From Deltaproteobacteria bacterium (GTDB lineage: Bacteria; Desulfobacterota; Dissulfuribacteria; Dissulfuribacterales; DYLC01), in contig JAQVIJ010000001.1 of NCBI GenBank assembly GCA_028695735.1, positions 299,081-363,080 on the forward strand: a DNA stretch of 64,000 bases, given 5' to 3'. Below, in pieces: positions 13,822-30,416 of this stretch. The first letter of the stretch is position 1, and each line of letters begins with the position of its first letter. A program made the translations under genes and the position numbers. A model generated the notes under the pieces. It was not told the origin of the DNA. It searched no databases and worked only from the letters and a program-made list of their open reading frames with translations.

Positions 13822-15243
13822 TCAAGGCGCAAGGACGCAAAACGGTACTGGTATATTCACCAGAAGAGAGGACGCAAAGACTTTATCCGGAATGGGCAAA
13901 CCGGTCTCCTGACTGCCGTCGCATAAAAAGACATGAGGCGGCGGTTCCACCAGGTAAAAACCCAGATGAAACAGGTCCGATATCTTGAGCGGTGTGGGAA
14001 ATGGATTGAGAAAATCCGGTATATAGACATTGGCCCCAACGGGGTCCGTCTGAAAATACGCATTGGCCTCCTGGACATTCATACGCACACCCTTGAAACA
14101 GATACCGGCTATCTCCTCAAAGACAGACAGCCAGTAATCCGTGCAGTTGGCGCCGTTTTTCAGGCCGTCGTCCACTATGTAAATGGCCCTGTCAAAAAAA
14201 TTGCCTGACCAGTAATACTCCATCTGATATGGCAAATTCGCCTCCATATCCGCCTGCATTCGCGCAAAAAGCCGTTCCTCCGCTGCCGTTAGTTCAGTCA
14301 ATGGTTCTGCTGCAAATCGCTTGGCCCATCTGGCGGTATATTGCGCAAGATCTTTATTCTGCACAGGCTCACCAGTGTTTTCTGCCACCGGCACTGCCAG
14401 CTCATAGTATTCAGGAAGACGAATCAAGCGCAGTTCGTGACTTTTATGCGTAAAGTCCGGCGTTATCTCCATGCCGTAGGCCTGACCGTCTTTATCCCTT
14501 CCAAGATACACAGCGATGTGGTTGAAGAGACCCGGTATGATCTCGCTTATGAGGGCCTCGTTCTGAGGCGTAGAAGGGTCATCTAACACCTCTCCCATGA
14601 ACATTATGTCCCAACGATTCAAAGGCAGGTAACCCATGGCATCCTGATCAGGCAGCCGTACAGGAAACAGGTACGGCTCATTCACCAACTCGTAAGGAGT
14701 GAGCGGCAGATAGGTCAGAACGACCTTTTGCACGGCCACATTGCTGAGCCAGGTCTCAGGCTGAAAAGGTGGAGAGCCCTGTTGAGTCAAAACCGCTGCA
14801 AAGACATACTCACCAGCGGCTATTTCAGGCGGCAGCACAAGGGAAATCACGGGAATGGCCAGGTCCTGTTGCGACCTTCTCACGGCCTGGAATGCAATGG
14901 GAACAGAACTCCAGTGATTCAAGTCCGGCGCGAGAAAAAGAAGCTCGTTCTTCGGTGTTAAAACCGCTACATAGAGATCTGCCTGAATATCCGCTGTATT
15001 CGAGATCCCCAGGCCCAATCTGAATTCATTGCCCGGCCGCAGTACCCTTGCCGAGACATTAAAGGTCACGATAGCAGAAGGAGAGGGCTCAGCGCCGAAG
15101 ACAACAGGCAGAAGGTAAGACTGAAATAAAACAAATAAGATGACCATAGCGCAAAAAAGACACGCCATGTGCCGCAAATGATACAGCCCGACCGTATTCA
15201 ATATAATGGAACCCGGCCGGGCGGCCAGCCGGGCAGATTGCAT
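13822..15243 (-). CDS. Secreted protein with a possible permuted papain-like (YiiX-type) fold
   Basis: The 473-residue protein is not confidently recognised. A hydrophobic segment ('FCAMVILFVLFQSYLLPVVF', residues about 30–49) ending near 'GAEPS' looks like a signal peptide. The true start could be the ATG at 15168 rather than 15243; neither has a clear ribosome site. Residues about 55–190 form a strand-rich, bacterial Ig-like domain ('VSARVLRPGNEFRLGLGISN'). Later, 'GLFNHIAVYLGRD' gives a His and 'NGANCTDYW' a Cys, in the order expected for permuted NlpC/P60 hydrolases of the YiiX/YebB type. That link is inference. It converges on the DegT gene with a 12-bp gap. Confidence 0.6.
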   Translation of the reverse strand: MQSARLAARPGSIILNTVGLYHLRHMACLFCAMVILFVLFQSYLLPVVFGAEPSPSAIVTFNVSARVLRPGNEFRLGLGISNTADIQADLYVAVLTPKNELLFLAPDLNHWSSVPIAFQAVRRSQQDLAIPVISLVLPPEIAAGEYVFAAVLTQQGSPPFQPETWLSNVAVQKVVLTYLPLTPYELVNEPYLFPVRLPDQDAMGYLPLNRWDIMFMGEVLDDPSTPQNEALISEIIPGLFNHIAVYLGRDKDGQAYGMEITPDFTHKSHELRLIRLPEYYELAVPVAENTGEPVQNKDLAQYTARWAKRFAAEPLTELTAAEERLFARMQADMEANLPYQMEYYWSGNFFDRAIYIVDDGLKNGANCTDYWLSVFEEIAGICFKGVRMNVQEANAYFQTDPVGANVYIPDFLNPFPTPLKISDLFHLGFYLVEPPPHVFLCDGSQETGLPIPDKVFASSLLVNIPVPFCVLAP

Positions 15244-15266
15244 AACAACTTTTAACCCTATTTACA

Positions 15267-15755
15267 CTAAGAACCTGACAAGGAAGCGACCAAGTCACTT
15301 GGCAGTTCAATGCTGGCTATATATTGACCTGTCTTGGCGCTGGAACTGTAGATATAAATATCTAAACGTAGATTGGTTTTGCTAAGAAAAGATACCTTGG
15401 AGGCCTTGATATAGACATAACTAAAGGCAGGAGGGGATGCGACAGCGCCTGGCACAAGCTGATTATTCAGGGCATCGGCGTCATTCCCCAGTCCTGCAGC
15501 CGCAAGGTCAGTGGGCGAAAAGGCATAGACCTTGGTGGTGCTGTCCGACAAAAGGGAACTTATCATATTTTTAAGGCTGTTCATGTAGCCATTTACCTCG
15601 TTCACTGTGTATTGTGAACTATTGAAATTTACAAGGACGACATACATACTGGAGCTGTCCTGGGCCACAAAACCAGCCGGGATACCGGCGGCTATGGCAT
15701 TGGTTAACCACAGAGAACACACTAACATCACTAATGACATCAGTTTCTTTTTCAT
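15267..15755 (-). CDS. Small secreted protein of unknown function
   Basis: The 162-residue product begins MKKKLMSLVMLVCSLWL with an 'AIAAG' cleavage region, a clear signal peptide. The mature part is Ser/Ala/Val-rich with predicted strands ('MYVVLVNFNSSQYTV', 'LRLDIYIYSSSAKTGQYIASIEL'). The family is not recognised. A 'gggaggtgcg' site precedes the start. It lies 23 bp upstream of the YiiX-like gene on the same strand, so the two are probably cotranscribed. Confidence 0.65.
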   Translation of the reverse strand: MKKKLMSLVMLVCSLWLTNAIAAGIPAGFVAQDSSSMYVVLVNFNSSQYTVNEVNGYMNSLKNMISSLLSDSTTKVYAFSPTDLAAAGLGNDADALNNQLVPGAVASPPAFSYVYIKASKVSFLSKTNLRLDIYIYSSSAKTGQYIASIELPSDLVASLSGS

Positions 15756-16106: not shown

Positions 16107-18512
16107 TTAGAAGCTATAGGTCAGATAACCCACCAGCGACTGCAGGGTATTGCTCTCATCCCGATAGACATAGGGCGCATCGTCCTGATAATCGGTATAG
16201 TAGTAGTTCAGGCCGATCCCCATCTGCTTAGTGAGGCGGTATGCCACGCCCAGAGTCACATCCAACTCCTTGAAGTCCGCATTAGAATAAGCGGAGATGC
16301 CGTTTATGTATGCAGTGTCATAGAGATAGATCTGATTGGGGTTCAGTGCGCTCACATTGTATGAGAGCTTCACATCACTGGTCTCCAAGTGGGCAAAGCT
16401 CAGCTCCGATATGTTGCCTGTACCCTTGGTGTAACTGCCAGTGAGGTTGAAGGACAGTTTTGCCATGGGCTTCAGGCCTGCGCCTAACATGAAGGTGTGA
16501 GCCTCTGTCTCATACTCCATCTTGGTGTGTGCCGAACCAAACTGGTTCGTTGTGATGAAGTTAGCTCACCCATCATAAAGTGCGATACAATACATGGAAT
16601 CGTATGTATCATAGAAATAATTATAACCGGCTGTAAATACCAGTTTTTCAGACGGCGTGAGCACTAAGTTCAGACCGCCTGTAAAGAGGTCCTGCTGCCA
16701 GTCATTGCCACTTACATCGTCGTTTTTGGCGTTTCTATACTTGCCGTACAGATTTGCGGACAGTGTCTTCATGGGCATGAAATTGCCCTTCAGGCTGAAC
16801 TCATGCGCCTGATTGGGGAGATTGGAGCGTGTGCCTGTACGGGCGTCGTAGATGGTAGGCCCATAGCTTCTGTAATAATCCGCTCCATCGGAGGCAGGGC
16901 CTGCATACTGGCCGAAACTGCCCCACGGCGTACACACAGCGTTTTTATAGGCATAAGGATGGTTCACAAACTGGCCCTTGTAGCCCAATGCCCACTTCAT
17001 CTGCCGGTTTATACGCCAGTCCGCCCCTAACTTTATGGTGTGCTCCTCCGTGGTCTCAGGCACATTCAGGAGATCCGCATTCTTGCGATCGTCCATCTTG
17101 TACTCATAGCCACCCTTGAGCGTAATGCCCTTGGCCAGCTTCCAGGAGAGGTCTGCCCCAAGGGTCAGGATGTCCATGTCATAGGCGGAGAAGCGAGTGA
17201 AGTCCCAGAGGTCCGCAGGCTCATTCTTATACTTATTGTGCAGGGCAGCATCATTGACATCTATACCGACATTGTCGTTGTTCATGGTCTGATACTTGCC
17301 GAACAGGTTCAGACTCACTGCATGGGACAGACGGCTGTGCCACTTGGCCATCATGGCTGTGCTGTCCAGCTCCAGGTCCTTGCCGAACTCGCCGTAGAGC
17401 GGCGAATAGGCCCCATCCGTCTGAGTGTTGGTGCTCTTGGAATAGACCAACCCTGCCATCACGGTGTTGTTGGCATCGATGTCGTAGCGACCCTTCAGTG
17501 TATGGCTGTCCTTGGTGGAGTCAGGCGTGCGGCTGAAAGGCAAAATCTCCGAACCTGCATTGAGAGTGGTGCCACTGTAGGTGGGGAATTGCAGGTTTGC
17601 GGCAAAAGGCGCTATGTGCGCGGCTGCCAGGGCATTATAGCCGTTTATCATCTCCTGACTCTTGTCATTGAACTCCCGATGCAGGAATGAATACTCCAAT
17701 GCAAGGGCCTCGAACTTCAAGGAGACCCTGGGGATATAGTCATTGGTCTCCTCGTTTATTCCTTTACTGTAGGACTCGATGTGACAGGCTGAACACTTGC
17801 TGGTGGTCAGGGCCTGAGCGCATCCCTTGCGTTTTTCCTGCCTGTGATCAAAGCCCACCTGTAGCCCAGGGAAGTTGGGCACATTGAAGGTCAGGCTGTT
17901 CTCCCAGGTGGTGTGCGTGTTGCCATATGTGGCAAACGGGTCATGATCCGTGTGATATACGGCCGCCGCACCGATGGTGCTTCTGGAGTTCTGATAGCCA
18001 GCGGTGTTTGGGTCTGTATCAGGCAGGGCCTGACAAAAGGCGGGATTGTTTGGATCAGGGCATGGGAAGGGCAGACCCACCGGCGCCCCCGGAGTACCTG
18101 CGGCCCTGAAGATCTGCGCCGTCAGGTTGTCCATGTAATCATGGCCTAACCTGTGCATAAAGCGGTCGTAATTGGTCTTGTAGAGCATTACGCGATTCAG
18201 GTCCAGATTGCCGCCATAGGTCTGGTCATCGCCATCCTTGTAACGGCCGTTCACATCGAAGTTGATGGCATTACTTCTGTAATCCAGCTTGGCGCCCGTA
18301 TCCCAGGACAGGTTCTTGTCAGCGGTGCTGTCAAATTCAGCCCCGCCTTTGGCCCTGCCTTCGTGTCTATCCAAGTCGTCCAACTGCCACTTGCCTCCGA
18401 TGGTGACTTCACCCTGCAGGGGCTTGTCAGAGGAATCTCCGGCCACGGCCTGAATGGCAAGGGGCATAGCAAGACACAGACCAACCAATACAGTTAGATA
18501 TCGTCTTTTCAT
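16107..18512 (-). CDS. MtrB/PioB-type outer-membrane porin with in-frame UGA (possible selenocysteine)
   Basis: One frame runs from the ATG at 18512 to 16107, about 801 residues, broken only by a TGA at 16566–16568. Signs of an outer-membrane beta-barrel are a signal peptide ('LAIQAVAGD'), repeated alternating aromatic strands, and a final Phe in 'VGYLTYSF'. It resembles the MtrB/PioB porins that hold decaheme cytochromes across the outer membrane, and the decaheme gene lies 13 bp upstream. Without readthrough the product stops after 648 residues and lacks the last strands. Downstream of the TGA the frame stays open for 153 codons with barrel-like sequence. The UGA is preceded by 'CIALYDG' and followed by a SECIS-like hairpin; selB lies 10 kb away. 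A CSACH heme motif also sits near residue 245. The alternative is a nonsense mutation. A GGAGGAGA site precedes the ATG. Confidence 0.8.
16533..16568 (-). promoter_or_regulatory. UGA codon with SECIS-like stem-loop in the porin gene
   Basis: After the UGA (16568–16566) and a 16-nt spacer, the mRNA can form CGAACC-AGUUU-GGUUCG (16549–16533). This is a perfect 6-bp stem with a 5-nt loop that has G at its second position. The distance from UGA to loop is about 22 nt. These values fall in the range described for bacterial SECIS elements. No SelB-binding test is possible from sequence. Confidence 0.45.
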
Positions 18513-18525
18513 GGTCTCTCCTCCT

Positions 18526-19518
18526 CTACCTTGTCAGTGCCTGACCCTGGCCTGATACCGACTGCGATGGCAGATCAGAACCATGCACATAGGGGTGGCA
18601 TTGAGTGCATTTGGTCATAAAGGACTTCTGGAAACCGTATTCCGTGGCGCCAATGGTGCTGGACGGGTCTCCAGGCGCTGTCACAGCAAACTTGCTGTTG
18701 GAGGCGCGAGCCGCATGGAAATGGGCCTCATGACACTGTAGGCAAAGGAAAGGCTCCTGTTGGCGCAGCAGGTTGTTGGCCACTGTACCGTGCGGATCAT
18801 GACAGATCATGCAGTCCTCCACTACGGGGTCATGCTCAAACACAAAAGGCCCCTGATAGCGGGTATGACACTTGAGGCAGAGGTCGTTTACACGCTCATC
18901 GGTCTTCAGCATGGCCTTGCCGAAGTTATTGCCTCCATGTGGGTTATGGCAATCCGTGCAGCCCATCTTACCCTCTTTGATGGGGTGATGGGATGCAAAA
19001 TAGGTCTGGGCCATCACATCCTGATGGCAGGTGCCACAGAGCTCGTTTTGGCCCTTGGCAAGCAGGGCCTTTCGGTCGTTTTTGTGTACGGTGTGACAGG
19101 TGGTGCAGGTGACTTCGTTTTCTGCATGTGCGGAACCAGCCCAATTCAGGTGTTCCTTGGAGCTGTGACAGGTGGTGCATACTGCGGCCACCTCTTCCTC
19201 ATGCAGACCCTCTTCGCCGAAGCGGAGTATCTTGGTCTTGTCTCCTCCGCCATCCACATGCAGGGAACCAGGCCCATGGCAACCCTCACAGCCGATGGCC
19301 TTGGCGCCCGGCGCCTCAAATGAGGCAATACGCAAGTGCACATTGTGCCTTTCCTTGGAGATCTCCTCATGACAACCCATACAGGTGTCATTTCCCACAT
19401 ACTTGGCACATGGATCGATTTCAGGGGGCTTGACTATATTGGCCCTCTTTTCTACGGCCTGAGTACAGCCCACCAAAAGGCCGACACAGGCAGCTGCTAC
19501 GATGAACTTTCGAACCAT
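18526..19518 (-). CDS. DmsE-like decaheme c-type cytochrome lipoprotein
   Basis: The 330-residue protein contains ten CxxCH motifs (CMGCH, CEGCH, CTTCH twice, CGTCH, CTDCH, CLKCH, CMICH, CLQCH, CTQCH). The N-terminus 'VGLLVGC' is a lipobox, so the protein should be lipid-anchored after the lspA-encoded peptidase acts. It matches the small MtrA/DmsE-type decaheme cytochromes that sit inside MtrB-like porins and pass electrons across the outer membrane. The porin gene follows 13 bp downstream. The gene has a strong 'cgaggaggtaatt' ribosome site. Upstream lies a structured leader with a terminator, so expression is probably conditional. The extracellular acceptor or donor is not identifiable here. 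Confidence 0.9.
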   Translation of the reverse strand: MVRKFIVAAACVGLLVGCTQAVEKRANIVKPPEIDPCAKYVGNDTCMGCHEEISKERHNVHLRIASFEAPGAKAIGCEGCHGPGSLHVDGGGDKTKILRFGEEGLHEEEVAAVCTTCHSSKEHLNWAGSAHAENEVTCTTCHTVHKNDRKALLAKGQNELCGTCHQDVMAQTYFASHHPIKEGKMGCTDCHNPHGGNNFGKAMLKTDERVNDLCLKCHTRYQGPFVFEHDPVVEDCMICHDPHGTVANNLLRQQEPFLCLQCHEAHFHAARASNSKFAVTAPGDPSSTIGATEYGFQKSFMTKCTQCHPYVHGSDLPSQSVSGQGQALTR

Positions 19519-19860: not shown

Positions 19861-20241
19861 CTACTCCATCTCCACCGTAAGCAGCAAAAGTTCATCTCCG
19901 CCTTTACGGCTACAGAATTCATGACCGCATAAGGGGCATGAAACAGCAAGGGCTTGAAATATATTGATAGGATCCGTGTGTGCGGAGTGTTCCGGCTGAA
20001 AATTATGTCCACACCCGTTGCAGGTGTATTCCACATTTGAAGATTCTACCTCCACTTTCATTCCTTTCAGGGCTGATTCCTGTTCGGACAAGGCAGTTAG
20101 GGAAAAGAGCAGGGATTCCACAACCACCCCTGAAAATCTGCCGATGGCAAGTTTGATGAATGTAACCCTGCGTCTTTGATACTGCATCAAAAGCCCTTTT
20201 AGTTGGCTCACGAGTTCCTGGGCTATGGAAAATTCATGCAT
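19861..20241 (-). CDS. hypA: Hydrogenase/urease nickel insertion protein HypA
   Basis: The 126-residue protein starts MHEFSIAQELV, with the nickel-binding His2. It carries two zinc-ligand pairs, 'CNGCGHNF' near residue 73 and 'CPLCGHEF' near residue 105. HypA delivers nickel to NiFe-hydrogenase precursors with HypB. The start overlaps the stop of the upstream protease gene by 8 bp, so it is the last gene of the hyp cluster. No hypB or hypF is in the window. The spacing between the Cys pairs is somewhat longer than usual, with an insertion rich in His, Asp and Pro. Confidence 0.92.
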   Translation of the reverse strand: MHEFSIAQELVSQLKGLLMQYQRRRVTFIKLAIGRFSGVVVESLLFSLTALSEQESALKGMKVEVESSNVEYTCNGCGHNFQPEHSAHTDPINIFQALAVSCPLCGHEFCSRKGGDELLLLTVEME

Positions 20242-20806
20242 AAGGACCAGCAGGTGCGTCTATGGAAACAACGGGCACACTCATCTCCTTCAAAAAAGAG
20301 ACGATTTGCTCAGCCATTTGCGGCAAAAGGGCCTGAAGTTTTGGTGAAAGCTGAACCCCAAGGCTCAAATCCCGAGGGGTTGTACAGAAAAAGTCCAAGG
20401 CCCTTGCGGCATTTCCACGCAATAAAGAGAGCTCAAAGACCTCTAATATCCCCACTTGATGCGGAGACATGGCTGTCTGCATGGAATGCCTGCGAAAGGC
20501 ATTTGCATCAGTAAAATGGTAGATGGCCTGGCCTGAGTCCTTGTCCTGAAAGGGGACAGAGACCGACGAAGACGGCCTTGGCGCCTCAGCGATCACATCT
20601 ATGAGGATTACCCTGTCCACATCCTCCAGATATGGGCCGAGTACCATGCCGCCTGTGCCCGCATCCACTAATTGAATCTCGAAGCCCTGGGCATCAGCCG
20701 CAGAGAAATCATAGTGGGCATGCAGGTAGCGGATACAATGCACACCAAAGCCTTCATCTGACATGAGCAGATTTCCAAGGCCTAATATATTGATTTTTTT
20801 CAGCAT
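20234..20806 (-). CDS. NiFe-hydrogenase maturation endopeptidase (HyaD/HycI family)
   Basis: The 190-residue protein begins 'INILGLGNLLMSDEGFGVH', containing the conserved Glu/Asp nickel ligand region. 'LVDAGTGG' and 'ILIDVI' follow, as in HyaD-type proteases. 'MSPHQVGILE' supplies the His ligand. These enzymes clip the C-terminus of the large hydrogenase subunit after metal insertion. It overlaps hypE by 7 bp and hypA by 8 bp, so the operon is tightly coupled. Its substrate hydrogenase is not in this window. Confidence 0.9.
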   Translation of the reverse strand: MLKKINILGLGNLLMSDEGFGVHCIRYLHAHYDFSAADAQGFEIQLVDAGTGGMVLGPYLEDVDRVILIDVIAEAPRPSSSVSVPFQDKDSGQAIYHFTDANAFRRHSMQTAMSPHQVGILEVFELSLLRGNAARALDFFCTTPRDLSLGVQLSPKLQALLPQMAEQIVSFLKEMSVPVVSIDAPAGPYA

Positions 20807-21810
20807 ATTCTGGGAAGCGGCTCGCCTGTAAGGGGCCTGAGCAATCTTTTGCCGCCGATGGCGGTCTTGAGGATAACCCTGCCATTTTTCTCTGGCATGA
20901 CTCGGCCAATTATAGCGGCACTGACCCCTTCATGCCTACTGCGCATAAGCTGAAGTGTCTTCTCTGCATGTTCAGGGGCCACAAATACCACACACTTGCC
21001 CTCATTGGCCAGGTATAGAGGGTCAAACCCCAGTATTTCACAGGCCGAGGCCACAGATGAATGAATGGGAATGGCCTCTTCATCTATCTCAAAATCCCAG
21101 CCACTGCGGCCAGCCAGTTCCGTCAGGGTGGTGGCCAGTCCGCCTCGAGTCGGGTCTCTCATACAGTGCAGCCCGCTTTTCACTTCCTCCAACAGGGCCG
21201 CCACCAGCCTGTGAAGGGGCATGGTGTCGCTGGTTGTGGAGGTCTCCAGCTTGAGACCGCTGCGGCTGGTCAGAATGGTGATGCCGTGGTCGCCCACTGT
21301 CCCTGAAACCAGAATGCAATCCCCAGGCTGTATGCGATGATATGATGGAACCGGCTCGCAATGAATGACTCCTATCCCTGAGGTATTGATGAATATCTTG
21401 TCTCCCTTGCCGTGAGGGACCACCTTGGTATCGCCTGTGACCACCTGTATCCCTGCTGCCTCCGCTGCCTCTGACAGGGAGCGGGAGAGCCGTTCAAATT
21501 CCTCAAGCCTCAATCCCTCTTCCAGAATCAATCCGAGGCTCAGACACACAGGGCTGGCCCCCTTCATGGCCAGGTCGTTAAGAGTGCCGTTCACTGCCAG
21601 CCGGGCGATATCGCCGCCAGGAAAAAAGATGGGGTCCACCACATAGCTATCGGTGGTAAAGGCGAGTTTTGTCTCGCCGATTGAAATGACGGCGCTGTCT
21701 TCCAGCTCATTCAACACCGAATTGTTCAGAAACGGCAGCAGGTATTTGAAGAGCAGTTCCTGACTGGCCAGCCCGCCGCTTCCATGATCCAGGGTTATGT
21801 GTTGTTGCAT
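20800..21810 (-). CDS. hypE: Hydrogenase maturation protein HypE
   Basis: The start at 21810, preceded by CAGGAGAC, gives 336 residues. A longer ORF to 21918 would overlap hypD deeply and is rejected. 'LDHGSGG' opens the ATP-binding PurM-like fold, and 'FTTDSYVVDPIFFPGGDI' follows. The C-terminus ends PRIC, the cysteine that is carbamoylated and dehydrated to a thiocyanate. HypE makes the cyanide ligands of the NiFe active site with HypF, then passes them to HypC–HypD. The gene overlaps hypD by 16 bp. Confidence 0.95.
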   Translation of the reverse strand: MQQHITLDHGSGGLASQELLFKYLLPFLNNSVLNELEDSAVISIGETKLAFTTDSYVVDPIFFPGGDIARLAVNGTLNDLAMKGASPVCLSLGLILEEGLRLEEFERLSRSLSEAAEAAGIQVVTGDTKVVPHGKGDKIFINTSGIGVIHCEPVPSYHRIQPGDCILVSGTVGDHGITILTSRSGLKLETSTTSDTMPLHRLVAALLEEVKSGLHCMRDPTRGGLATTLTELAGRSGWDFEIDEEAIPIHSSVASACEILGFDPLYLANEGKCVVFVAPEHAEKTLQLMRSRHEGVSAAIIGRVMPEKNGRVILKTAIGGKRLLRPLTGEPLPRIC

Positions 21811-22931
21811 GTCTCCTGACCCCCATATTTGAAAAATGCGGCGCAAGTGCCCTCTGTGGAGACCATACATGGCCCAAAAGGCCTGGAGGGCGTGCAAGCC
21901 CTGCCGAAAAGCGGGCACGCTGAAGGCGATGCCTTGCCCTTGAGTATCTCACCGCATCGGCATTTGTTCTTCAAGTCCGATGAGTCCTGAGCAAAGGTTT
22001 CAGGAAAGGAAATGCGACTGCGCACATCGAAATCTGCATATTCAGGCCGCAAGGCAAGCCCGCTTTGAGGCAGAATGCCCAGCCCGCGCCATTCGGCATC
22101 TGCGGGCAGAAAGACCCGCTGCATCATGTCCATGGCCCGCTGATTGCCGTCCCAGCTCACCACCCGTTCATAGGCGTTGTGAATACCGGGCCTGTTATTC
22201 AGTATTCGCTCCGCCAGGACACATAGGCCCTGCATTATATCCACGGGCTCAAAACCGGTGATCACACAGGGCACCTTGTATTGGTTCGCTATGGGCTCAT
22301 AGGCCCTGGCGCCGATGATGGCGCTCACATGCCCTGGGCAGATAAGACCCTGCACCCGGCAGCCGGTATCGCTGAAAATGGCATGCAGGGCAGGCGGCAT
22401 GAGCTTCATGGCAGGATATAGAGTGAGATTGGAGAGATTCTGACGTTTTGCCTCAAAAAGCATACTCGCTATGCCTGGAATAGTGGTCTCAAATCCTACG
22501 CCCAGAAAGACAACAAGGGTATTTAAGTGCTCTTTTGCCACAGAGATGACATCCATCGGTGAATAGACCGTAAGCACGCGAGCGCCCGTGGCCCTGGCCT
22601 CCTGAAGGCTGCCTTGAGTGCCTGGAACGCGCATCAGGTCGCCGAAGGTGGTGAGAATGCAGTCCTGACGGCTCAGCCATATAAAGGCGTCTATATCCCG
22701 CTGGCTGGTGACGCACACAGGACAGCCCGGGCCTGATATGAGGTGCAGACCAGGCGGCAGCAAGGAACGAATGCCATGTCGAAAGATACTGACGGTATGG
22801 GTGCCGCAGACCTCCATGCAGAAGACCTCCTGGCCCTTGTTTGCATCGAAAAGGGATATGAGGCGTTCTCTCAGAAAGGAGACCAGCGCAGGTCTTCTGT
22901 AATTCGCCTCAAAGGAACCGAAGACGTTCAT
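21795..22931 (-). CDS. hypD: Hydrogenase maturation protein HypD
   Basis: The 378-residue protein has the HypD markers 'CMEVCGTHT', 'GPGCPVCVT', 'FLGVGFETTIPG' and 'CPGHVSAIIG', plus C-terminal cluster cysteines ('CRCGEILKG'). HypD holds a [4Fe-4S] cluster and assembles the Fe(CN)2CO unit with HypC. The stop codon of hypC overlaps its start by 4 bp (ATGA). The C-terminal tail, about 30 residues past 'RACTPSRPFGPCMVSTEGTC', is typical of the family. Confidence 0.95.
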   Translation of the reverse strand: MNVFGSFEANYRRPALVSFLRERLISLFDANKGQEVFCMEVCGTHTVSIFRHGIRSLLPPGLHLISGPGCPVCVTSQRDIDAFIWLSRQDCILTTFGDLMRVPGTQGSLQEARATGARVLTVYSPMDVISVAKEHLNTLVVFLGVGFETTIPGIASMLFEAKRQNLSNLTLYPAMKLMPPALHAIFSDTGCRVQGLICPGHVSAIIGARAYEPIANQYKVPCVITGFEPVDIMQGLCVLAERILNNRPGIHNAYERVVSWDGNQRAMDMMQRVFLPADAEWRGLGILPQSGLALRPEYADFDVRSRISFPETFAQDSSDLKNKCRCGEILKGKASPSACPLFGRACTPSRPFGPCMVSTEGTCAAFFKYGGQETCNNT

Positions 22932-28502: not shown

Positions 28503-30416
28503 TCAGCCACGCAGCCTTCTCTTGTCACCTATGCGCATGGTGAGCTTCTGATTGTCCAAATATTCCAGGATCGGCACCATATATTTGCGGGAAAGCCCTC
28601 CTGCCAGGTCCCTGAAGTCGTTTATGCCCATTTCACCGTGTTGCTTCAGAAAATTCACCACCATAGACCTGATCTGCGCCAAAACAGCTGTGTGCAGATA
28701 GAGGTCGTCCTTCAGATATACAAGCACCCCTTCCCTCACAAGGAGGTTCAGCAGGCTGGAGACCAATGTCTTGTCCTCAAACATGGCGAAGAGTTCCGTC
28801 TTTGATGGGGGTGTCATGCCTGCCTTGAGATATATTTCCGCTATGCGCGACTGTATGTCCCTGTCCTTCTCCTGCATGTTCAAACGGTGACCTGCAAGCC
28901 TTACCAGGTCCTTGTCCTGGGTCAATTCATCGGCCTTGACCAGATCGGCAAGCAGCCGCTGAAAGAAACGGTTATCTTCCAGAATGGGGAAGAGCCTGGA
29001 GCGCAGCTCTTCCTTGGGCATGCCCGGAGACAATGGGGCTTCCAAATGATATTGTTTCAAAAAATTCAGGGCCTGACTGCGTTTCTTTTCATAAACTTCT
29101 GCACTCAAGATACGCTGGCCCTCACTGTCCAGTTTGATGGCCTTGTTCTGCCCCAAGAGGTTTTGCAGCTCCCTTTCCAGGGTCTTGCCATAGAGGGCTG
29201 TGCGCAGGGAAATCTCGGCCAGGGACAGGCCTCGCTGGTCCGCCTGTTTCAGGTGGTAGAGTATGCGCTCAGAAGGAGTACCTTTGTCCAGCACAGCCAT
29301 CTCATTCCAGAGTTCGGGCCTGGAGCGTCTGCGCCGTCTGGGGAGGGGGTTCAGAATGCCGCCTCCGCCGATGGTAATGACAGGTGAGTAACTGCGAATG
29401 ATATACCGATCCCCTGGCAGCACAGCCACGGGTCTTTCAAGCTTGATCTGGGCATAGGTGTGTTCACCCGGGGCCAATTCGTCCTGTTGCAGCAACACCC
29501 GGCCCATGACCTCTGCTGTGCCTGTATGGAATCTCACAGGCGCCCTGTGCTTAAGGGGCCGTTCAGCAGTGGCGAGATGGTACAGCTGAATGTCCAGCAG
29601 AAAACTGGGCCGCAAGCCGTCAGGGACGGAGAGGACATCCCCACGTTCTATCTGATCCACCTGCACCCCCTGAAGGTTGATGGCTGTGCGCAGCCCCGGC
29701 ACGGCCTCCTGGGCCTCCTGGCCGTGGTTCTGAATGCCTCGAATACGGGTGGAAATGCCCTTTGGATAGAGCATCGCCTCTTCGCCCACGCGAATGTGTC
29801 CGGAAACAGTGGTGCCTGTCACCACGGTTCCAAAACCCTTGATGGTAAAGACGCGGTCGATGGGCAGGCGGTAAGGTCCTGATGTGGTGGAGACAGGCAG
29901 GTCGTTCAGCAGTCTCTGAATTCCGGCCTTCAGGTCATCGAGTCCCTCCCCTGAGAGAGACGAAACAGGTATGATTCCGGCCCCCTCCAGAAAGGTACCC
30001 TGCATGGCCAATGCTACGTCCTCCTTGACCAGTTCGAGCCACTCGGGCTCCACCATGTCTTTTTTGGTGAGACAGATCACCCCCCTTTTGACTCCAAGCA
30101 GCTCACAAATGGCCAGGTGCTCCCGTGTCTGGGGCATGATGCCTTCATCCGCTGCTATCACCAGCAAGACCATGTCCATGCCCGTAGCGCCCGCAACCAT
30201 GTGTTTGACAAAGCGTTCGTGGCCGGGCACGTCAACTATGCCGATGCGCTGACCCGACGGCAGATCCAGGTGTGCAAAGCCCAGTTCTATGGTGATACCA
30301 CGGCTCTTCTCCTCCTTCAGGCGATCCGTGTCGATGCCTGTCAATGCCCGTATCAGCGAGGTCTTGCCGTGGTCTATATGCCCGGCCGTGCCGAGTATGA
30401 CTGTCTTGGCGGCCAT
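28503..30416 (-). CDS. selB: Selenocysteine-specific elongation factor SelB
   Basis: The 637-residue protein has an EF-Tu-like GTPase core: G1 'GHIDHGKT' at 12–19, G3 'DVPGHE', and a G4 'TKKD'. Two beta-barrel domains follow, and then a long C-terminal part of winged helices (about residues 370–637) that read the SECIS hairpin. SelB delivers selenocysteinyl-tRNA to in-frame UGA codons. Its length is close to E. coli SelB (614). The gene lies between metG (1 bp) and the MTHFR gene (2 bp). It makes a selenoprotein reading of the UGA in the porin gene plausible. selA, selC and selD are not in the window. Confidence 0.95.

Follow-up and report, generated by a model that had tools for sequence, protein, structure and literature searches.

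The locus analysed here raises the question of whether the single TGA that splits a predicted electron-conduit porin gene is a stop codon or a selenocysteine (Sec) codon and, if the latter, what selenium may do at the outer membrane. The window, that is, the whole stretch of DNA that was analysed (64,000 nucleotides), carries this gene on its minus strand, and the sequence and coordinates given for the TGA, the gene, and the hairpin in a preliminary description of the window all proved correct on rechecking.

16107..18512, minus strand: porin gene of the OmcL/GSU2204 family, MtrB/PioB type, predicted to encode a selenoprotein; 801 residues across the TGA, stop codon included
16566..16568, minus strand: in-frame TGA, codon 649, predicted to be read as Sec; the same codon is TGA in 57 distinct homologues

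The 801-residue reading contains only this one internal TGA, with the 152 residues behind it forming an open frame that ends in ...YLTYSF; a C-terminal Phe is typical of outer-membrane barrels. The preliminary description of one TGA interrupting an otherwise continuous MtrB/PioB-type barrel gene holds across the family, with TGA found at the identical aligned codon, and the frame open downstream, in the 57 distinct homologues from Thermodesulfobacteriota, Myxococcota, and Nitrospirota. The porin was found in 36 of the 60 related genomes searched, nearly every full-length copy having exactly one internal TGA, and a phylum-wide search showed the same pattern, with a single internal TGA in nearly all full-length copies; the named loci are drawn from Thermodesulfobacteriota, Myxococcota, Nitrospirota, and Aminicenantes. 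The surrounding motif is mostly [YF]C-x-A-x-Y-[DN]-G-U-[AG] or a looser version of this pattern. Alignment of homologues at the UGA position, as proposed in the preliminary description, reveals Cys (TGC/TGT) in six (L071, L073, L074, L078, L082, and L110), five of them from Aminicenantes and one a paralogue in the same genome, with a tree built by a quick method, and carrying a long-branch warning on the paralogue, indicating at least two separate Sec/Cys switches. Gly (GGA) is found in one close relative (L037), and Gly or Ser in the more distant L107, L111, and L114.

That the TGA is a true stop, or that it reflects misassembly or a pseudogene lesion, leaving a truncated porin, is extremely improbable: termination would give a predicted protein of 648 residues, but 57 distinct sequences share the identical TGA with conserved protein beyond it and a covarying hairpin, and the final five of 26 barrel strands are encoded behind it. 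Pseudogene formation and sequencing error are ruled out by the 57 homologues with TGA in register, and a change of genetic code by the use of TGA as the ordinary stop of 19 of the 38 long open reading frames in the window, from which it follows that the genome has undergone no such change. Standard annotation can end such porin genes at the UGA and thereby lose the last barrel strands.

In L037 (genome G022) the GGA lies one base from TGA and the hairpin is degraded, yet selA and tRNA-Sec are present; this is likely a loss of Sec, and such a Gly-bearing homologue suggests that some settings may not require Sec. In L064, from Thermodesulfatator autotrophicus, a TAA or TAG breaks the porin frame some 40 profile positions upstream of the conserved TGA, and this break is an error or lesion.

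Directly behind the TGA lies the hairpin that had been described as SECIS-like.

16533..16549, minus strand: hairpin CGAACC-AGUUU-GGUUCG, predicted SECIS, starting 16 nt past the TGA; assessed by covariation and by a synonymous-shuffle test

A perfect stem of at least 6 bp is found in the expected window in 82% of the 57 distinct TGA sequences, compared with 23% following synonymous-codon reshuffling (sd 5, maximum 39%; 300 shuffles). The five central stem pairs are paired in 87–93% of sequences, the 93% figure allowing five sequences a one-base register shift, versus 67% in column shuffles (maximum 74%), and these pairs show 48–60 double changes versus 15–16 (maximum 28). Sliding the stem partner by one to three bases lowers pairing to 21–59%. 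Pair 22-32 illustrates the range of pair types (AT 19, CG 14, GC 12, TA 2), and the stem of L038 and L067 is displaced by exactly 3 nt through the deletion of one codon. No SECIS-type hairpin is recognisable in the Cys, Gly, or Ser forms examined, all homologues lacking the TGA, with L111 and L114 having AT-rich stems whose sequence is unlike the SECIS hairpin. Conservation through compensatory changes, above both the synonymous and the column shuffles, bears out the earlier suggestion and indicates that the hairpin is a SECIS. As in the bacterial SECIS and UGA-Sec system generally, the hairpin stands directly behind the UGA, a G lies early in its loop, and all four sel genes are present; no difference from that system was found.

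The selB gene noted previously on the strand of the porin was identified as follows.

28503..30416, minus strand (that of the porin): selB, selenocysteine-specific elongation factor; TIGR00475, 365.8 bits (cut-off 242)

The remaining genes that the preliminary description had named for a search of the genome, selA, selC, and selD, were all found: selA at 592 bits, selC as a tRNA-Sec with anticodon TCA, and selD at 366 bits and itself with an internal TGA. Among other genomes, selA is present in 28 of the 29 UGA-porin genomes tested versus none of the five Aminicenantes genomes with Cys forms, these five being mutually related and not five independent observations. A tRNA-Sec scoring above 70 bits is likewise present in most UGA-porin genomes, several drafts having no high-scoring match, and in none of the five Aminicenantes genomes.

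Recoding or suppression of the UGA to Trp, Gly, or Cys is similarly far-fetched, as although unusual decoding exists in this genome, in the form of a selC*-like tRNA(GCA) and a second SelB, the anticodon of that tRNA is GCA and not UCA, UGA is a normal stop in half of the long open reading frames of the window, a SECIS and the full selABCD set are present, and the residue replacing Sec in homologues is mostly Cys. Judging from these sequence comparisons, the TGA codon almost certainly encodes Sec, inserted via the SECIS by the genome's own SelA, SelB, SelC, and SelD, and the porin gene is, on the same grounds, a genuine selenoprotein gene of a known predicted family.

That family is NCBIfam NF041027, named ‘GSU2204 family CXXCH-containing (seleno)protein’, which the porin matches with 495.3 bits (cut-off 350); the model stops exactly at the Sec residue, with the match ending at residue 648. 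The score, the single CXXCH, and the adjoining GSU2203-type decaheme gene all place the porin with the OmcL proteins of Geobacter and HotSeep-1, to which it is a full-length family match, its partner matching NF041028 (GSU2203/OmcK); no family-level difference was seen, and the porin here represents this family in another lineage. The porin additionally matches Pfam MtrB_PioB (PF11854) with 69 bits (gathering score 23), and a profile search among solved structures retrieves MtrB (6r2q_B). An AlphaFold2 model built from 40 sequences (mean pLDDT 80) shows 26 barrel strands, as counted from the strand list, and has 6r2q_B as its best structural match (TM 0.62 by query, 0.75 by target). Profile, predicted fold, and structural match thus agree with the MtrB/PioB-type identity assigned to the porin at the outset.

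The partner of the porin is encoded directly upstream.

18526..19518, minus strand: decaheme c-type cytochrome, MtrA/DmsE-like, OmcK/GSU2203 family, first gene of the pair; NF041028, 457 bits; TIGR03508, 254 bits; 10 CXXCH

In each of the 33 loci examined, the porin is immediately preceded by a gene for a cytochrome of 9 or 10 hemes. Apart from a distant four-heme open reading frame fragment in L072, no further multiheme gene adjoins the pair in these loci, whose flank lengths vary and are in some cases below 1 kb. No outer-surface multiheme cytochrome of the MtrCAB type (MtrC/OmcA) was found in the cluster within the flanks examined. The porin and the upstream cytochrome very probably form a two-gene electron conduit of the OmcK-OmcL type, similar to MtrAB and PioAB and without MtrC, as judged from gene order and the predicted fold. 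The decaheme cytochrome would fill the 26-strand MtrB-like outer-membrane barrel. Compared with the MtrB/PioB porins (PF11854; 6R2Q chain B), the 26-strand barrel and the pairing with a decaheme cytochrome are common to both, whereas the porin here adds its own CXXCH heme site and Sec and is not adjoined by an MtrC/OmcA-type gene.

Elsewhere around the pair, the window holds hydrogenase maturation genes upstream (20234-22931, minus strand; an HycI-type protease, an AIRS/HypE-like gene, and HypD), and, downstream of the porin (13822-15755, minus strand), two open reading frames of 473 and 162 residues without a Pfam or NCBIfam match. A plasmid search gave no near match.

Where Sec would lie on this barrel can be judged from the model, together with a heme motif in the porin itself.

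17781..17795, minus strand: CSACH, putative heme c motif, residues 240-244, in the loop joining strands 7 and 8; without variation in alignments A1 and A2 and in all homologues covering the region

From its motif, the porin would carry one covalently attached heme; all Sec and Cys homologues covering this region have a single CXXCH. All even-to-odd strand turns of the model are 2–6 residues long, with most odd-to-even loops being long (up to 73 residues). Porins usually expose their long-loop face to the outside. The C-terminal Phe lies on the short-turn face, with the long-loop face carrying the Sec loop (residues 646-656, at a moderate pLDDT of about 70), the heme motif, and Cys527; the invariant His120 and Cys642 are placed at strand ends on the long-loop side, and the strands bearing the heme (7-8) and Sec (21-22) are among the longest. 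By the porin rule the face of Sec and heme is therefore taken as extracellular, and the two probably share the extracellular mouth of the barrel, where other conduits bear an MtrC-type cytochrome.

Among the possible roles for Sec in such a position, a structural or maturation function unconnected with electron flow, for example in heme attachment to the same-face CXXCH or in barrel folding, is possible but rather unlikely. The presence of a single CXXCH in every covering Sec or Cys homologue, and its location on the face that bears Sec, are in favour of this role; however, CXXCH is retained in L037, L107, and L111, which have Gly or Ser at the site, and persistence of the heme site therefore needs no Sec. 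Furthermore, Sec is costly, and its retention across a long divergence speaks against such a role.

Less probable still is that Sec acts with the Cys seven residues upstream as a conventional redox pair (CxxxxxxU), as the preliminary description had proposed. Two cysteines are relevant here.

16587..16589, minus strand: Cys642, seven residues upstream of Sec; not universal, being missing from several UGA homologues and every Cys form
16932..16934, minus strand: Cys527, likely disulfide partner of Cys642 in the order; co-occurs with Cys642, both being absent in L038, L066, and L067

The presence of Cys642 in most members of the order is consistent with such a pair, but UGA is kept without Cys642 in ten homologues (L038, L066, L067, L091, L094, L102, L103, L105, L112, and L113), and every Cys form lacks it. 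Where Cys642 does occur, another partner is usually available to it, either Cys527 or, in the Thermodesulfatator and Desulfuromonas relatives, a Cys 13 residues past Sec with which it co-occurs. With Cys642 dispensable while the Sec site stays, the pair is ruled out as a general mechanism, and the proposal is not sustained. Some UGA homologues do have extra cysteines that are potential partners of Sec.

In the paralogue of the same genome and in L078, the Sec-site Cys is the only one besides the two heme-motif cysteines, and the sole further Cys of L073, L074, and L082 sits in the signal peptide. With the Sec-site Cys the only non-heme cysteine outside the signal peptide in such proteins, it is a lone selenolate or thiolate, and not half of a dithiol, that appears to count. 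We therefore put forward, tentatively, a lone-selenolate role for Sec, in which Sec at the surface would serve as a metal or heme ligand, or as a one-residue redox or contact site for the last electron step. His120, invariant and on the same face as the heme motif, could be the second heme ligand, leaving Sec free, or Sec itself may take the sixth coordination site of that heme. Taken as a whole, the best explanation of the locus, and one we hold with considerable confidence, is a Sec porin and decaheme conduit in which Sec would act at the surface. A more specific and more speculative possibility, which we consider doubtful as it stands, is that a conduit without an MtrC-type cytochrome ends in a selenium-tipped outlet, with the porin-bound heme and lone selenolate together forming the last point of contact to minerals, filaments, or partner cells, for instance with Sec ligating the heme iron or binding metal directly. 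If true, selenocysteine would here have a function other than thiol-type catalysis.

The majority of known selenoproteins act as thiol-type redox enzymes or as metalloenzymes. The position of Sec at the apparent extracellular mouth of the barrel, its wide retention, and its exchange with Cys and only rarely Gly suggest that selenium may have a job at the point where electrons pass out of or into the cell.

Parts of this picture have precedents. Reviews of 2022 (PMC9312934) and 2026 (PMC13188914) include the GSU2204 family among predicted selenoproteins and give no redox motif for it; in the main text of the 2008 metagenome paper that both cite for the family, no mention of it was found. In Geobacter, expression of GSU2203/GSU2204 rises 2.4–2.7-fold with hematite and 1.5–1.7-fold with magnetite (PMC4070692). 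The pair has been named OmcK/OmcL, with expression of the HotSeep-1 OmcKL homologue reported as four-fold above that of OetABI (PMC10553843); the same study calls OmcK extracellular and states that no periplasmic cytochrome adjoins the pair, in contrast to the locus here, whose partner gene has the score of a decaheme cytochrome of the MtrA/DmsE type. ExtKL, a predicted selenoprotein of Geobacter electron transfer (PMC1914089, PMC5877670), is likewise tied to electron export or selenite reduction, but is a multiheme cytochrome and not a porin, and is compared here by description only. A literature search, with most subscription papers outside its scope, found no paper on Sec function in the OmcL/GSU2204 porin. 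The earlier claim that Sec in an electron-transfer porin would be a new role does not stand, as the family is already catalogued and ExtKL already proposed: neither Sec in this porin nor Sec in electron export is new. What is new is the covariation evidence for the porin SECIS, the strict two-gene unit of decaheme cytochrome and porin, the evidence against the proposed Cys-Sec pair, and, probably, the placement of Sec and the porin's single heme on one extracellular face of the predicted barrel. Selenoprotein reviews have listed the GSU2204 family with no function assigned, and electron-transfer studies have separately discussed it as OmcL; joining the two opens a direct test in a genetically tractable host. 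Natural test cases are provided by the Cys form in the Sec-less Aminicenantes, and by the Sec/Cys paralogue pair of this genome.

The Cys member of that pair belongs to a second decaheme-porin unit (L123:10867-14358, plus strand), which has TGC at the site, is 24% identical to the Sec porin, and shows no SECIS-like stem. The unit is flanked by a double-cubane reductase/activase pair and by a selC*-selB* pair, a kind of pair described by Mukai 2017 (in PMC7609411). The latter consists of a second SelB-like gene (L123:8469-10454, minus strand; TIGR00475, 273 bits) lying 24 nt downstream of a tRNA of the tRNA-Sec family (L123:10478-10567, minus strand) with a GCA (Cys) anticodon, a T after the acceptor stem, and CCA not encoded, both within C2:676469-678567 of the same genome. 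Recoding of the Cys-form paralogue by the second SelB and tRNA(GCA) was considered and rejected, there being no SECIS-like stem in the paralogue and no porin of this kind near the other selC*-selB* pairs (L154, L155, and L156); the association of selC*-selB* with the Cys-form porin is one of neighbourhood only. Similar selC*-selB* pairs occur in G006, G031, and G005, each with different neighbours.
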